The notes under the pieces were generated by a model. That model saw only the letters and a program-made list of their open reading frames with translations. It was not told the origin of the DNA and made no database searches. 64,000 nt of DNA. Origin: Paracholeplasma brassicae. GTDB taxonomy: Bacteria > Bacillota_I > Bacilli_A > Acholeplasmatales > UBA5453. Positions 36,334-41,917 of the stretch are shown here, one piece after another. How positions within the stretch are numbered: position 1 is the first letter of the stretch; the number at the start of each line of letters is the position of its first letter. A program made the translations under genes and the position numbers. Where the stretch lies: positions 1,662,366 through 1,726,365 of the forward strand of contig NC_022549.1 in assembly GCF_000967915.1 (NCBI RefSeq), given 5' to 3'.

Positions 36334-37845
36334 TTATATTATGTAGATAATGTTATCAAGATTAACTTTTCCATTCAATACTTCTATCTTGATAATCACA
36401 TTTGATTGATTAATATCAAATGTATATGTCTTGAAGTCAGTCGTTAGTAAGTCGATTGAATCTAGCAGTATAAACTCATCAGTTACGTTAATATATATGT
36501 TGATGATACTATCATACGAGAAGTAAACCTCTGATCCAAAAAGTCTAGCATCAAACGATAACATTCTAACATATGAAAAGGGATCAACGTTATACATATA
36601 ACTAACCGGTGTACTAAAGTAATCATCCTTATCACCTCTAAATCTAGCCACAACCGATCCATTACTATCACTCATGTAGTTCATTTCTTTTTCTTGATGC
36701 ATGACTAAGGTGTGTACTTCTTTTAATACAAATTGCATGCCGTTTAATTCATGAATAGTTTCTTCATTGTCAAAGTCGAATAACTCAGATTCAAAGTCAA
36801 CACTTGTTGTTTTATGCTCAGTTTGTCCACTTAGATTAGTCTTAAATATGATGTCATCAACTGTTAAACGATGACCACTACTAATTTCAATTCTAAACGT
36901 AAAATCACCTGAAACATTTAAATTAGAAAGCATAAAAGTCTTTCCTTTATTTGCTTCATCGTCATCTAAGAAACTGAATGTTTCAATCAATGTATCATTA
37001 ACAAATACTTTGATTCTAGCGTTGTTTGCTTTATCTGATCCACCACCTTGTGGATAAGTTGATTTTGGTGAAAATGGTAACCTTGCTTTAAACGATACTT
37101 CAGATATGCCATCAACACCATTGGTTAATTCTATAAATCCTAACCCTGCATCACCTAAGTCATTCCCAAAACCACCAATGGTGATCGCATTACCATTTGC
37201 TTTTAAACCAATATCGATTCTACCGTTTAATACATCATACGTAAAACCTTTAACTGAAATATAATCAAAATCTTCATATGAACTAAAATTACCACCACCG
37301 TCTTTGATGACTTGAAGTTCTTCAAAATCCTCTGTGTGATATGAATCTTCGATATTTTCCTCTATCTTTTCCCATATCGCTTTTAAGGTTAGCCCATTTA
37401 AAGGCATATGCGTTGGTAGTTCTTTATCCCATTTAACAAATCGATGTCCTAATTTTTCAGGTATACTGGTGATTGATAACTCGCTTAAATAAGGTTGTTT
37501 AACATCAGCCATTGAAGTTCCACCATCTGTATCAAACGAAACCGTATAATGATTTGTCTCCCATAATGCTTTTAGATTAATGTCATGATTAGGCATCACT
37601 TCAGGTAACGTTTGATCCCAACTTATAAATGTATGACCAACTTTAGATGGCTCATCGCTTAAATCGATGATGTCACCTTCTTTTAACTCAACCGGTTTAA
37701 TTTCATCGCCGCCATCTGTATCAAATGAAATCAAATAAGTATCTAAATCCTTTTCAATGTCATTGTCTTTTTGACAAGCCACTAACCCAAGGCTCATCAT
37801 AAAAACCAACAATACAAATAACAACTTTTTCATGCTAATATTCAT
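36334..37845 (-). CDS. Large lipoprotein with two InlB-type repeats
   Basis: 503 residues. ATG at 37845 preceded by AAAGGAG. Lipobox in MSLGLVACQ. Two Listeria-Bacteroides repeats: about 38-95 (SFDTDGGDEIKPV...GHTFISWDQTLP) and 96-160 (SFDTDGGTSMADV...GHRFVKWDKELP). The rest (165-503) contains two beta-sandwich regions that look like carbohydrate-binding or jelly-roll modules (SYEDFDYISVKGFTYDVLNG, ...HRLTVDDIIF, and a second copy ending KVNLDNIIYII). A surface-exposed adhesin or binding protein; no catalytic motif seen. Confidence 0.8.
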   Translation of the reverse strand: MNISMKKLLFVLLVFMMSLGLVACQKDNDIEKDLDTYLISFDTDGGDEIKPVELKEGDIIDLSDEPSKVGHTFISWDQTLPEVMPNHDINLKALWETNHYTVSFDTDGGTSMADVKQPYLSELSITSIPEKLGHRFVKWDKELPTHMPLNGLTLKAIWEKIEENIEDSYHTEDFEELQVIKDGGGNFSSYEDFDYISVKGFTYDVLNGRIDIGLKANGNAITIGGFGNDLGDAGLGFIELTNGVDGISEVSFKARLPFSPKSTYPQGGGSDKANNARIKVFVNDTLIETFSFLDDDEANKGKTFMLSNLNVSGDFTFRIEISSGHRLTVDDIIFKTNLSGQTEHKTTSVDFESELFDFDNEETIHELNGMQFVLKEVHTLVMHQEKEMNYMSDSNGSVVARFRGDKDDYFSTPVSYMYNVDPFSYVRMLSFDARLFGSEVYFSYDSIINIYINVTDEFILLDSIDLLTTDFKTYTFDINQSNVIIKIEVLNGKVNLDNIIYII

Positions 37846-38324: not shown

Positions 38325-38614
38325 GTAAGCGTCAAATAACAGACGTAAAAAAAGACCTGATCGCTCAGATCTTAGCTGTTACTTAAACAAGGTGATGGTT
38401 AGTCAGTTCCGTTATTCATATGAAATTTAGTTATCATCTTTTCACTATAAGGCATTAACTCGTCTAGTTTTAGCTCATTTACTTTTGAATTAGTTAATAG
38501 CTCTAAGATGTAGGTGTAGTACTTATAAGGATTTAACTCATTCATCAAACAACTTTGTGTGATTGAATATAATAGCGCACTTGAATCTGCACCATTTGGT
38601 GTATTAGAAAACAA
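38325..38614 (-). pseudogene. IS66-family TnpC C-terminal remnant with terminal repeat
   Basis: 38399-38614 encodes FSNTPNGADSSALLYSITQS, MNELNPYKYYTYILELL and ELMPYSEKM, the C-terminal part of IS66 TnpC (DDE_Tnp_IS66_C region). It has no start. About 70 bases after its stop comes GTAAGCGTC (38325-38333), which matches the typical terminal bases of IS66-family elements, in the right orientation for the right end of this element. Everything upstream in the transposase is lost. Confidence 0.75.
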
Positions 38615-38738: not shown

Positions 38739-39417
38739 CTAAAACCTCATTATTTCATCCTTAAATTGTTCGATATTTACTATCTCAATTGTCTTGTGGT
38801 TCAATGTTATAATTAGTCCTAACGACTCTAGTTCTTTAAGTTTACGACTAAATGTTTCAGGTGTTAAACCAACTTGTTTTGCTAGATTTTGTTTGGTTGT
38901 TTTAAATGTAACAATCCCGTTTTTATGATTTTCTAACAATAAGTGAGCCACACGATAAATGGCTTTTTGAATATTAGTATTTTCGATTAGTTCTTCAGCT
39001 TTTACTAATCTCTTTGATAATTCAGTCATCATTTTAAACGATAACTCAGGTGAGGTAACCATCAGCTTCTTTAGTTCGTCTTTGTCGACTAAACATATCA
39101 CTGCATCCTCAATCACTTCAGCAGTTGATGACATCAATTCCTCACTAAAAATAGCCATCTCACCAAAGAAATCACCTTTTTCAAGAATTCTAATGACTTG
39201 TTCTTTACCCTCATCATTGAACTTACTCACTTTAACTTTACCCCGATGAATGACATATAAGCTATTAAGGATATCACCAGAGGTATAGATGAAACTGCCT
39301 TTAGAACGCTTTTGATGGGTGGAAATCAAACAAACCGCATCTTGCTCATCCTTAGAAAGGTTCTTAAATATCGGTACATATAAAATACAGCTTTTTGGTT
39401 CTAAGTTCTTTTTGCAT
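38739..39417 (-). CDS. Crp/Fnr-family regulator, start region frameshifted
   Basis: Cyclic-nucleotide-like domain (CILYVPIFKNLSKDEQ, GEMAIFSEELMSSTAEV) and C-terminal helix-turn-helix TTKQNLAKQVGLTPETFSRKLKELE. The recognition helix has E-x-x-S-R (ETFSR), the FNR residues that read TTGAT. The true start is the ATG at 39417 with GGAGG seven bases upstream, but it is out of frame. Removing one A from the five-A run (39409-39413) gives MQKNLEPKSCILYVPIF. The open frame up to 39464 instead starts inside the promoter. About 225 residues. A probable regulator of the metal ATPase operon next to it. Confidence 0.85.
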
Positions 39418-39435
39418 ATCAATACCTCCAACTCT

Positions 39436-39464
39436 ATTGTATGATAAAGGCTTCTTTTTGCCAA
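39436..39464 (-). promoter_or_regulatory. Promoter of the Crp/Fnr regulator gene
   Basis: Minus-strand TTGGCA (complement of 39459-39464), 17 bases, TACAAT (complement of 39436-39441), about 20 bases before the ATG at 39417. The regulator can therefore be expressed independently of the upstream ATPase operon. Confidence 0.7.
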
Positions 39465-39476
39465 GGTTTTTAATCT

Positions 39477-39704
39477 TTATTTTAGGGTTGTTTTTAAAAC
39501 ATCATAACCGATATTTTCTATTGTTTTTTGAATTTCATTAGAATCCAACTTAGAATCATCAAATGATAATTTAACTCTACTCGAATTAAACATCACTTCG
39601 ACTGAATCCTTGTCGATTCCTTCTAGACGCTTTAACCCTTTTTCAATTTTGAGTAAGCAAGAAGGGCAAGTTAATGTTTCTAATTGTAATGTCATTTGTT
39701 TCAT
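39477..39704 (-). CDS. Heavy-metal-associated (HMA) domain protein, CopZ-like
   Basis: 75 residues forming one HMA ferredoxin-like fold: MTLQLETLTCPSCLLKIEKGL has the metal-binding loop TCPSC, and ENIGYDV is the usual end. It starts four bases after the stop of the ATPase gene, which itself lacks an HMA domain, so it probably delivers or receives the metal as a separate chaperone. Confidence 0.88.
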   Translation of the reverse strand: MKQMTLQLETLTCPSCLLKIEKGLKRLEGIDKDSVEVMFNSSRVKLSFDDSKLDSNEIQKTIENIGYDVLKTTLK

Positions 39705-39708
39705 ATGT

Positions 39709-41562
39709 TTATTTCTCCTTTATATTTGTTTTTAATAGTCTCATCCCGTTTAAAATCACTACTAGAATGGATAGTTCATGAACTAACATGCCAATAGACA
39801 TTGTCATCTGACTGTTATATAGCACTTGATAAAGTAAGACAATAACGACTAATAACGAAATGATAATGTTTTGCCACATATTTCTTAAAATCTTGCCAGC
39901 AAGCCTTTTTGCAGTTGCCAAATGGTAAAGATCATGATGCATTAAGACAACATCACTTGTCTCAATCGCAACATCGGTACCACCTTTGATTGAAATACCA
40001 ATGGTTGCACTAGCTAGTGATGGTGCATCATTGATGCCATCACCAATGAAGGTTACTTTTCTACCTTCAAGTACTAATTTATCAATGAATGCCTTTTTAT
40101 CTTTTGGTAACATCCCTCCAAATCCTTGTGTCATATTAAGACTATCTTTAATTTTATCTACTGCCCCTTGGTTATCACCAGATAAAATATAAGTATCTTT
40201 AACACCTAGTTGACGTAATCTCTTTAAATCATTATTGATATTATCTCTTAATTGATCTCCAATTGAGATAACCGATAAAACTTTCTCTTCTTCTGCTAAA
40301 ATGACATATGATAATCCTTTATCTTCAAAGCGTTTAATGTCATTTAAAACTGAACTTAGTTCTACTTGATAATCATTCATTAATGCTTGATTACCAAGTA
40401 AAATGCGTTTGTCATTTATGTATCCCTTGATGCCCTGACCTTTAATAACATTTAAGTCTTTTACCTCAAAAGTACTTACATCACCTATGTAGTTAAGGAT
40501 AGATTTTGCCAGTGGATGTGTTTGAGTTTCTTCCAACGATTTATAATAGTTTTTAATCTTATCCACATTTGAATCATAAGCTATCATCTCTACAACTTCA
40601 GGAAACCCTTTCGTGAGTGTTCCTGTCTTATCAAAGATGAACACATCACTTTTGGCTAAGTCACTGATGGTCTCACTGCCTTTAAATAAAATCCCGTGTT
40701 TCGCTCCAAAACCAATGCCTGCCACATTAGATACTGGAATACCGATCACTAAAGCACCAGGACAACCTAACACTAAAATAGTCACACCAAGTTCTATATC
40801 TTTTGTTAATAACCCCATCAACAACCCAAAAATTAATACCACTGGTGTATAAAAAGTGCTAAAACGATCAATGAATTGCCATGCTCTTGATTTTTTATCT
40901 TGAGCTTCAACAACCATTTCAATGATTTTACCAAAGGTTGTATCTTCTAAAACTGCAGTAGTTTTTATCACAATATGCCCGTCGTCTAATATACTTGATG
41001 CATAAACTTGATCTGATAATGTTTTTGATACAGGTATGGATTCACCAGTTAGTGAAGCTTCACTTAAATAACCACTGCCTTCAACAATCAAACCATCCAC
41101 AGGGACTTTTTCTCCTGTTTTTACAACGACCAAATCACCAACTAGAACCTCCTCAATCGGAATTTTTACAGTCAAACCATCTTTTAACACTGCTGCTTCA
41201 AGCGGTGTTAAATCCGTTAACTCTTTGATTGCTTTTTTAGTATGATTTAGTGTTTTTTGTTCTAGAAAAGAACCAAATAGAAATAGAAATGTGACAATCG
41301 CACTTTCTTCATAGTTCTTAATAATAAATGCCCCAAGTACAGCAAGTACGACTAATACATCAATGCTAATGACTTTAATTTTTAATGCGCTGTATGCTTG
41401 AAATAAAATAGGTAATAAACCTACTATAGAAGCAATCAATAACAAAATCTCTGATATGTTTTTATTATGAGTTACATAATTATTTACAAATGCAAATACG
41501 ATCAGTATCAATGAAACTAACATCAAATGGTTTTTATGTTTATAGATAATTTTTGTGTTCAT
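39709..41562 (-). CDS. P1B-type ATPase with unusual CPG motif
   Basis: 617 residues, no N-terminal metal domain. The transmembrane metal motif is LGCPGALVIGIPV (CPG rather than CPC) and the last helix has MLVHELSILVVILNGMRLL. TGES, DKTGTLT, THPLAK and GDGINDAPS are intact, so catalysis should work. The substrate cannot be fixed: CPG is not one of the well-studied P1B motifs. The operon partners (Ric-like, HMA) and FNR-type control point to Fe or Cu handling under low oxygen or nitrosative stress; that is inference. Confidence 0.88.
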   Translation of the reverse strand: MNTKIIYKHKNHLMLVSLILIVFAFVNNYVTHNKNISEILLLIASIVGLLPILFQAYSALKIKVISIDVLVVLAVLGAFIIKNYEESAIVTFLFLFGSFLEQKTLNHTKKAIKELTDLTPLEAAVLKDGLTVKIPIEEVLVGDLVVVKTGEKVPVDGLIVEGSGYLSEASLTGESIPVSKTLSDQVYASSILDDGHIVIKTTAVLEDTTFGKIIEMVVEAQDKKSRAWQFIDRFSTFYTPVVLIFGLLMGLLTKDIELGVTILVLGCPGALVIGIPVSNVAGIGFGAKHGILFKGSETISDLAKSDVFIFDKTGTLTKGFPEVVEMIAYDSNVDKIKNYYKSLEETQTHPLAKSILNYIGDVSTFEVKDLNVIKGQGIKGYINDKRILLGNQALMNDYQVELSSVLNDIKRFEDKGLSYVILAEEEKVLSVISIGDQLRDNINNDLKRLRQLGVKDTYILSGDNQGAVDKIKDSLNMTQGFGGMLPKDKKAFIDKLVLEGRKVTFIGDGINDAPSLASATIGISIKGGTDVAIETSDVVLMHHDLYHLATAKRLAGKILRNMWQNIIISLLVVIVLLYQVLYNSQMTMSIGMLVHELSILVVILNGMRLLKTNIKEK

Positions 41563-41852
41563 TAGATTTCTTGATATCCTTGATCGATTGATTTTATATA
41601 CTCATAAACCATTTGATATGTTTCACATACATCATTAGGTACTAAGTAGTCATGTGTTAATACCCTTAAACGGTGTAATGTTTCTTTAATCCTTAGATCA
41701 TCGTTAGTTTCAAATCCTTCATATAGCTTTAAATACTGATCATAAACCTCATAAAACTCTTTATGCGATTCTCCGTGAACCTTTCTAACAATTTTGATGA
41801 TTTCTAAAAAACGTTTGTTTTCTAATACTTCTTTTCTTAATACCGCATTCAT
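41562..41852 (-). CDS. Ric/ScdA-like short protein (Fe-S cluster repair family)
   Basis: 96 residues, all helical: FLEIIKIVRKVHGESHKEFYEVYDQYLKL then LHRLRVLTHDYLVPNDVCETYQMVYEYI. The VHGxxH pattern and the C-terminal DYxVP..VCExYQ resemble short Ric proteins of streptococci and lactobacilli, related to the ScdA/YtfE iron-sulfur repair proteins. First gene of the operon; its stop overlaps the ATPase start. AGGAGGGATAAT precedes the ATG. Confidence 0.65.
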   Translation of the reverse strand: MNAVLRKEVLENKRFLEIIKIVRKVHGESHKEFYEVYDQYLKLYEGFETNDDLRIKETLHRLRVLTHDYLVPNDVCETYQMVYEYIKSIDQGYQEI

Positions 41853-41875: not shown

Positions 41876-41917
41876 ATTTTATCAACTAATCCATATAAAA
41901 ACCTTGATCCAAATCAA
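41876..41917 (-). promoter_or_regulatory. Class II FNR-type promoter of the Ric-ATPase-HMA operon
   Basis: TTGATCCAAATCAA (41904-41917) is a perfect TTGAT-N4-ATCAA palindrome, the FNR consensus. On the minus strand a TAAAAT box (complement of 41876-41881) has its centre 32 bases from the centre of the palindrome, which puts the site at -41.5, the standard position for activation by Fnr/Crp proteins. No good -35 box exists, as expected for an activator-dependent promoter. It lies 24 bases upstream of the ATG at 41852. Confidence 0.8.

Follow-up and report, generated by a model that had tools for sequence, protein, structure and literature searches.

P1B-type metal ATPases whose helix M4 carries the motif CPG make up a widespread, little-noticed branch of bacterial metal-exporting pumps, one that sequence comparison places outside both the CPC (P1B-2) and the SPC (P1B-4) groups. 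P1B pumps are sorted by a few metal-touching residues, and the combination in the CPG pumps was absent from every group that we compared. We consider it probable that the operon described here is activated by an FLP-type regulator and encodes an efflux pump of this separate branch that receives its metal from a chaperone, and that the cargo is a thiophilic metal.

A CPG-type P1B ATPase in a tight gene run

The window, by which we mean the whole 64-kb stretch of Paracholeplasma brassicae DNA that was analyzed, covers positions 1662366 to 1726365 of a single-contig genome of 1.88 Mb. Its minus strand holds a tight run of four genes, in the order 96-amino-acid (aa) open reading frame (ORF), P1B ATPase, HMA protein and Crp/Fnr regulator. 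The stop codon of the first gene and the start codon of the ATPase gene overlap by 1 base, and 4 bases separate the ATPase gene from the HMA gene. The features of the run are as follows.

41904 to 41917, minus strand: FNR-type inverted repeat TTGATttggATCAA, a perfect match, 51 bases before the first start codon of the operon
41876 to 41881, minus strand: putative -10 hexamer TAAAAT, whose spacing would place the box at -41.5 (class II activation)
41562 to 41852, minus strand: 96-aa "mini-RIC," a shortened relative of the protein RIC/ScdA, which repairs iron-sulfur centers (NCBIfam RIC E value of 1.3e-9, with a score far under the cut-off)
39709 to 41562, minus strand: P1B-type metal ATPase of the CPG type, 617 aa, without a fused HMA domain (ATG start; TIGR01525)
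40756 to 40764, minus strand: codons Cys267-Pro268-Gly269, the M4 metal motif (39 of 39 CPG rows)
40612 to 40632, minus strand: DKTGTLT phosphorylation motif, from motif reading
39769 to 39789, minus strand: codons Met592 to Ser598 (MLVHELS, M6), with Met592, His595, Glu596 and Ser598 in 39, 39, 37 and 39 of 39 CPG rows
39477 to 39704, minus strand: separate HMA metal-binding protein, 75 aa, with CPSC
38739 to 39464, minus strand: Crp/Fnr regulator of the two-cysteine (FLP) type, start codon uncertain (Pfam cNMP_binding and HTH_Crp_2)

At the start of the regulator gene (39409 to 39430, minus strand), an ATG with a good ribosome-binding site is out of frame with the conserved regulator reading, and the open frame begins at an upstream TTG; where the gene really starts, or whether it is intact, is uncertain. 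A remnant of an IS66 transposase C terminus (38399 to 38614, minus strand) adjoins the operon.

The ATPase scored 490 bits against the heavy metal P-type ATPase family TIGR01525 (cut-off, 346.25), which places it in the P1B family. Its motifs are TGES at residue 172, CPG at 267, DKTGTLT at 311, HP at 349, GDGIND at 507 and HELS at 595. The preliminary description of this DNA had reported LGCPGALVIG in M4, intact catalytic motifs and an HMA domain on a separate gene, and all three observations held: M4 has this reading, with CPG at residue 267, and CPGALVI recurs in 14 of 14 aligned relatives (37 to 55% identity); TGES, DKTGTLT, HP and GDGIND are all present; and the 75-aa partner matches Pfam HMA with an E value of 1.8e-12. 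M6 reads MSIGMLVHELS, and the protein ends after it. The same description was right about HELS in this last helix but had compared it with HEGG, whereas excerpts of PMC8880997 give the P1B-4 motif as HEGxT. A predicted model of the pump (pLDDT 81, pTM 0.68) fitted P1B pumps best, with 7r0g as the top structure (Z score of 35.3, root mean square deviation of 3.0 over 609 residues).

Cys267 is the sole cysteine of the 617-aa pump, and 30 of 39 CPG pumps have a single cysteine in the compared part of the sequence. A pump whose one cysteine lies in the transport site is a handy subject for labeling and spectroscopy. The long-branch CPG pump L144/L169 (CPGALVIAIPIASS) has four cysteines, yet it is found with the usual HMA gene, Crp/Fnr gene and box.

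Distribution of CPG pumps

A search for relatives in 100 genomes of the order returned a block of loci at 37 to 55% identity, followed by matches mostly at 30 to 37%. All 15 full-length loci of the block, the window included, carry CPG; of the weaker loci that we fetched, 13 of 14 carry CPC or SPC, and the remaining one (L025) is unread. Across 392 genomes of the wider group, a DNA pattern for CPGALVI matched 25 times, in 24 of the genomes, and its reversed control had none among the matches listed; the pattern undercounts CPG pumps, L214 having CPGALVL. A scan of named species yielded a sample of at least 80 loci, of which at least 16 were CPG, with hosts that include Helcococcus, Streptococcus, Lactobacillus, Sporosarcina, Cytobacillus, Microbacterium, Corynebacterium, Sedimentitalea and the haloarchaeon Natrialba. 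The hosts of CPG pumps include Bacilli, Actinobacteria, an alphaproteobacterium and a haloarchaeon. On plasmids, 39 of 40 rows among the matches listed, the top rows included, were from Enterococcus at about 53% identity. These pumps are annotated as heavy metal pumps or zntA, and the motif was read in four fetched clusters.

CPG pumps lie outside the known groups in the tree

We built a 106-row tree with the CPx letters masked, using as references Escherichia coli CopA and ZntA, Staphylococcus aureus CadA, and Cupriavidus metallidurans PbrA and CzcP; we take the last two to be these proteins from their place on pMOL30 and their motifs, since the record calls them only heavy metal translocating P-type ATPases. 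In making the tree, 37 of 143 rows, including 7 of 46 CPG rows, were dropped by hand (near copies, fragments, P2-type pumps and thinning). All 39 CPG rows fell on one side of a branch with SH-aLRT support of 92. In a more careful tree of 58 of these rows, 23 of them CPG, the CPG branch had modest support (89/61, and 87% of 200 bootstrap trees), a group of P1B-2, P1B-4 and APC pumps stood beside it at 100/99, and the CPG pumps lay outside the CopA clade with full support.

Two groupings were rejected in tests of single clades, for which the groups were picked after the tree had been seen. Uniting CPG with the SPC pumps (P1B-4) was 37 log units worse (p-AU of 0.00524), and uniting CPG with the P1B-2 pumps (ZntA, CadA and PbrA) was 33 log units worse (p-AU of 0.0176). 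The phylogeny that the preliminary description had proposed as a check thus put the CPG pumps outside the groups of CopA, ZntA, CadA, PbrA and CzcP. We looked for a secure position within an established group that shares the motif and has a known metal, and did not find one in this tree, whose references cover P1B-1, P1B-2 and P1B-4.

A metal site with one cysteine and a new methionine

We aligned the metal site of 39 CPG rows with that of 61 CPC, SPC and APC rows; CPH, CPD and SPA rows were left out. Gly269 is present in 39 of 39 CPG pumps, whereas all 61 other rows have Cys there. Met592 is likewise invariant in the CPG pumps, and its place is taken by V, I, G or A in 59 of the 61 others. 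These differences bear out, at the level of sequence, the earlier reading that the metal site is altered while the rest of the pump is intact. His595, Ser598 and Glu86 are each kept in all 39 CPG pumps and Glu596 in 37; in place of the Thr of HEGxT, 38 of the 39 have Ile or Val. Val573 aligns with Lys in 27 of the 61 other rows, which is probably the P1B-2 M5 Lys. Judged from the alignment, the metal site combines a single Cys and a new Met with a His-Glu helix like that of P1B-4, and in our reading Met592 would substitute for the lost second cysteine. As natural variants of the site, Gln replaces Glu596 in two CPG pumps, L151 and L052 (HQGS and HQLS).

The likeness to P1B-4 was examined against sCoaT. 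In excerpts of PMC8880997, the high-affinity site of sCoaT is assigned to the SPC and HEGxT motifs, H657 is proposed as a built-in counterion, and E120 is proposed as a transient ligand for release. The CPG of the window pump aligns with S325-P-C327, His595-Glu596 with H657-E658, and Glu86 with E120. Nonetheless, M4 separates the two groups, with SPC in 14 of 14 SPC rows versus CPG in 39 of 39 rows of the clade, and in M6 HELSI retains the His and Glu of HEGxT without its Gly and Thr.

P1B-2 and P1B-1 were rejected by motif as well. The position of the second Cys of the P1B-2 CPC motif is taken by Gly269, and His595 stands where 27 of 30 P1B-2-like rows have Asp. In all 15 P1B-1-like rows, position 595 is Met and positions 598 and 599 are both Ser; at these three places the CPG pumps have His, Ser and Ile or Val. 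The M4 motif of P1B-5 is TPC, not CPG, and the window pump, which ends after M6, has no hemerythrin-like fusion of the kind that some P1B-5 pumps carry. Another M4 variant, CPD, occurs in four P1B pumps (L068, L078, L084 and L110); the three of these that are in the tree group with the CPH pumps.

Genes linked to CPG pumps

Neighbors within 3.5 kb were counted at two sets of CPG loci, 24 that came from the genome draw and 16 that the scan of named species had supplied, and at 64 non-CPG P1B loci of that same scan. An HMA gene apart from the pump was present at 21 of 24 and 15 of 16 CPG loci versus 8 of 64 other loci, a Crp/Fnr gene at 16 of 24 and 9 of 16 versus 1 of 64, and a mini-RIC gene at 12 of 24 and 5 of 16 versus 0 of 64; the CPG counts are lower bounds, several stretches being short, and the comparison is to be read with profiles that were built partly from loci later counted and with controls that come from other taxa. 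L168 and L180, which have no intact CPG pump ORF, were omitted from these counts, and L044 and L171, which hold the same pump on contigs of equal length, were taken as one locus that appears once in each CPG set. Among the 64 non-CPG loci, the HMA domain is inside the pump in 41. When ORFs of at least 70 aa lying up to 5 kb from 44 CPG pumps were compared all against all, HMA turned up at 27 loci, Crp/Fnr at 26 and mini-RIC at 19; next in number came ABC ATPases with 8 and overlapping antisense ORFs with 7, then ArsR-type ORFs and transposases with 5 each. Since gene order varies, the linkage is not merely the shared ancestry of one block. At one locus (L165), the HMA domain is fused to the C terminus of the pump, and a near relative (L164) has a stop between the two.

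All 18 aligned HMA partners contain C-P-[ST]-C. The slot between the HMA and crp genes is filled by Dps on an Enterococcus plasmid (L039) and by the mini-RIC ORF in Streptococcus and Lactobacillus (L045 to L047). Against NCBIfam RIC, the mini-RIC of the window scored 38.2 bits, well below the cut-off of 204.7, so it does not pass as a RIC protein by score, and all 10 aligned mini-RIC members matched the RIC/ScdA model weakly. A profile of these 10 members covers only residues 85 to 144 and 151 to 207 of S. aureus ScdA; His26, His30 and Cys76 are kept in all 10. A model made from 6 sequences (pLDDT 93.9) had S. aureus RIC 9r7j as its best fold match (TM score of 0.73 by query, Foldseek E value of 0.0097). 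No Foldseek match of the model reached an E value of 0.001, the PDB rows ranking below the two of ScdA seem to be helices matched by chance, and Pfam gave only weak, unrelated matches. Because mini-RIC stops short of the last part of ScdA, most of the di-iron ligands appear to be absent, as judged by what we take to be the ligand positions of ScdA/RIC, and any iron role of mini-RIC is weak to that extent.

A shared promoter and a two-cysteine regulator

Among 32 Crp/Fnr regulators of CPG loci, Cys26 (window numbering) is shared by 32 and Cys124 by 31, mostly 96 to 99 residues apart, and 26 of the 32 have PE[ST]xSR in the recognition helix. We take a spacing of about 97 to be the layout of Lactobacillus casei FLP, which reportedly acts as a dithiol-disulfide DNA-binding switch. 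The window regulator has two further cysteines, one upstream of Cys26 and one between Cys26 and Cys124.

Within the 64-kb window alone, the TTGATttggATCAA box is not significant (2 matches versus 0.33 expected, with 7 of 100 shuffles reaching 2), and the second perfect match, at 36406 to 36419, lies inside the ORF at 36334 to 37845 and is probably due to chance. We therefore give the counts across loci, scoring matches of at least 9/10 within 500 bases upstream of the pump at 45 CPG and 63 non-CPG loci; near copies and short loci (L041, L042, L044, L097 and L128 to L151) and one short non-CPG locus were omitted. The box was present at 32 of 45 CPG loci (shuffles, mean of 3.17 and highest of 8) versus 3 of 63 non-CPG loci (mean of 2.40 and highest of 6); the CPG loci are related, so the 32 boxes are not 32 independent events, and at least one of them, that of L167, falls within a gene, probably by chance. 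A -10 hexamer matching at 5/6 or better occurs at one single offset in 26 of the 32 boxed promoters, compared with 0 to 2 at each of 29 other offsets, and this offset puts the box at -41.5, the place of a class II activator. The actinobacterial loci L054 and L055 (about 70% G+C) have the box and no -10 that passes the filter. Thirteen of the 45 CPG loci have no box at 9/10; five of them (L048, L157, L158, L174 and L176) have a TTGAC form of the box with a -10 in the same place, and a rescan of 7 of the 13 found neither the strict box nor the TTGAC form at L056 and L057. In the enterococcal cluster L040, dps, crp, the HMA gene and the pump gene each have their own box and -10.

We scanned 296 genomes for the box followed by 22 bases and a -10, which gave 13 matches versus 2 for the control. 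In 10 cases a CPG pump operon, or the HMA gene that goes with it, follows the match; behind the remaining 3 there is no notable ORF. Nine of these 10 genomes had helped define the pattern, only L214 (the pump with CPGALVL) being new, so what the scan shows is that the pattern marks little else. With one mismatch allowed, the window's own genome had 45 matches and the control 13, a background too high for a wider regulon to be made out. FLP-type regulators have long been known without a clear role, and the shared promoter offers a direct way to test what they are for.

Proposed mechanism and candidate cargoes

From these motifs, the tree, the gene linkage and the promoter layout, we infer binding and activation by the regulator, transfer of metal from the HMA protein to the pump, the ligands and the direction of transport. 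The two-cysteine FLP-type regulator would bind the box at -41.5 and activate the operon, probably when its cysteines are oxidized or bind metal. The separate HMA protein would bind metal through CPSC and hand it to the pump, which would export it through Cys267, Met592 (in place of the lost second cysteine), His595, Glu596 and Ser598, with Glu86 helping in release. The 96-aa RIC remnant, or Dps elsewhere, would handle iron or Fe-S damage from the same stress. The genome encodes nine further P-type ATPases, including ones of the CopA-like CPC, P1B-2-like CPC, CPH and SPC types. The presence of these other P1B types argues for a stress-specific role of the CPG pump, and the nine other pumps count against our explanation to the extent that the need of the cell for this one is not obvious. 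A more tentative joint reading, plausible in our view, is that CPG pumps form an uncharacterized subgroup of P1B whose transport site (one Cys, one Met, His and Glu) is peculiar to it, that a thiol- or metal-sensing FLP drives the pump, the chaperone and an iron-protection protein from one type of promoter, with a box kept from Bacilli to Actinobacteria, and that the pump would export metal freed inside the cell by oxidative damage rather than metal from outside.

For the cargo, Cu(I) or Ag(I) is a weak first guess, Zn(II) or Cd(II) comes next and is rather unlikely, Fe(II) or Co(II) follows as somewhat less likely again, and any other metal is improbable. Cysteine, methionine and histidine suit Cu(I), so Cys267, Met592 and His595 would make a typical Cu(I) site, with the HMA protein as a CopZ-like chaperone. 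CopZ is indeed the best NCBIfam match of that protein (E value of 1.2e-14), though at 54 bits against a cut-off of 91, and its CxxC has no adjoining Met. The P1B-1 marks are missing from M6 of the CPG pumps, and CopA-like and CPH pumps are already present in the genome. On the Listeria plasmid pLM58, a gene row of Dps, Crp/Fnr, Lgt, chaperone and P-type ATPase, taken by annotation with the pump motif unread, is given in an excerpt of PMC5663981, where a table calls the chaperone and pump copper genes. A Zn(II) or Cd(II) pump on a side branch of P1B-2 would explain why the first Cys of CPC is retained, and lactococcal FLP regulators are said to be linked to zinc levels and peroxide, an Flp mutant effect that is the ground for naming Zn(II). 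This origin is at odds with the Gly and His that replace the second Cys and the M6 Asp, with Val573 opposite the probable M5 Lys, and with the rejected CPG-P1B-2 clade.

The CPG pump could also be a P1B-4-like exporter of Fe(II), Zn(II) or Co(II), similar to PfeT, PmtA or FrvA, in which SPC drifted to CPG and the cargo did not change. We regard this as unlikely, even though the M6 residues His595, Glu596 and Ser598 match P1B-4, the M2 Glu matches E120 of sCoaT, and both Dps and the RIC remnant are iron-linked partners; this M6 kinship and these partners are the grounds for Fe(II), which known P1B-4 pumps export according to an excerpt of PMC10654040. The single CPG-SPC clade was rejected, the Gly and Thr of HEGxT and the Cys of SPC are lost, Met592 is new and invariant, and the genome has a separate SPC pump (L006). 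The second Cys of the classic motif is lost, but it is very improbable that this reflects decay of the pump and its metal site, or an error in sequencing. CPG, Met592, His595 and Ser598 show no variation across 39 diverse pumps, the catalytic motifs are intact, an error is thereby refuted, and among 55 CPG loci only L168 and the contig-end piece L180 are without an intact pump ORF. A chaperone-fed exporter of a thiophilic metal under FLP control remains the reading that we prefer.

Relation to known systems

With the P1B-4 pumps (CzcP, sCoaT, PfeT and FrvA, the last an SPC pump in an excerpt of PMC3283593), the CPG pumps share the P1B fold and motifs, the His-Glu-x-Ser of M6 and the M2 Glu, and they differ in M4, in HEGxT, in Met592, in their separate clade and in their regulator and partners. 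They share the first M4 Cys with the P1B-2 pumps (ZntA, CadA and PbrA) and are about 30 to 37% identical to them where aligned, but they are without the second Cys and the M6 Asp, their HMA domain is not fused, and they form a separate clade. The separate CxxC HMA protein beside the pump recalls CopZ with the P1B-1 pump CopA, whose CPC and M6 Met-Ser-Ser are replaced in the CPG pumps and whose clade excludes them. A hemerythrin-family (RIC-like) protein also accompanies P1B-5-type pumps with a hemerythrin-like domain; there the di-iron domain is fused, according to an excerpt of PMC9388753, whereas at the CPG locus it is a separate, shortened gene. The regulators resemble the FLP/FlpA-type regulators of lactic acid bacteria in their two cysteines and FNR-like box; the link to a CPG pump is described here, and we found nothing on a pump in the literature on Lactococcus flp.

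In excerpts of PMC7558416 (Table 4), P1B-1 to P1B-7 are tabulated by substrate with P1B-7 as unknown, and P1B-6 and P1B-7 had not been biochemically examined according to an excerpt of PMC4932525. Literature on P1B motifs, on the gene cluster and on Listeria plasmids yielded neither an assay of a CPG pump nor data on the function, metal or expression of one; the classification review of Smith et al. 2014, which lay outside this coverage, may list a CPG group, and the promoter with its set of partners is the part least likely to be already known. Three clusters from Enterococcus and one from Lactococcus (L039 to L042) have CPG pumps about 53% identical to that of the window and the same box, and the Enterococcus plasmid clusters differ from the window in carrying Dps instead of mini-RIC.

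The regulator of the window is 51 to 57% identical to those of the second CPG set (L018 to L023, with the order HMA-pump-crp), but only 34 to 37% identical to those of L011, L013 and L016, which belong to the first CPG set together with the window pump. Judged by these identities, the operon is possibly a mixed one, with a first-set pump and a regulator nearer the second set. One genome of the same genus (G028) carries both CPG sets as paralogues, L010 and L182, which are 55% and 41% identical to the window pump.
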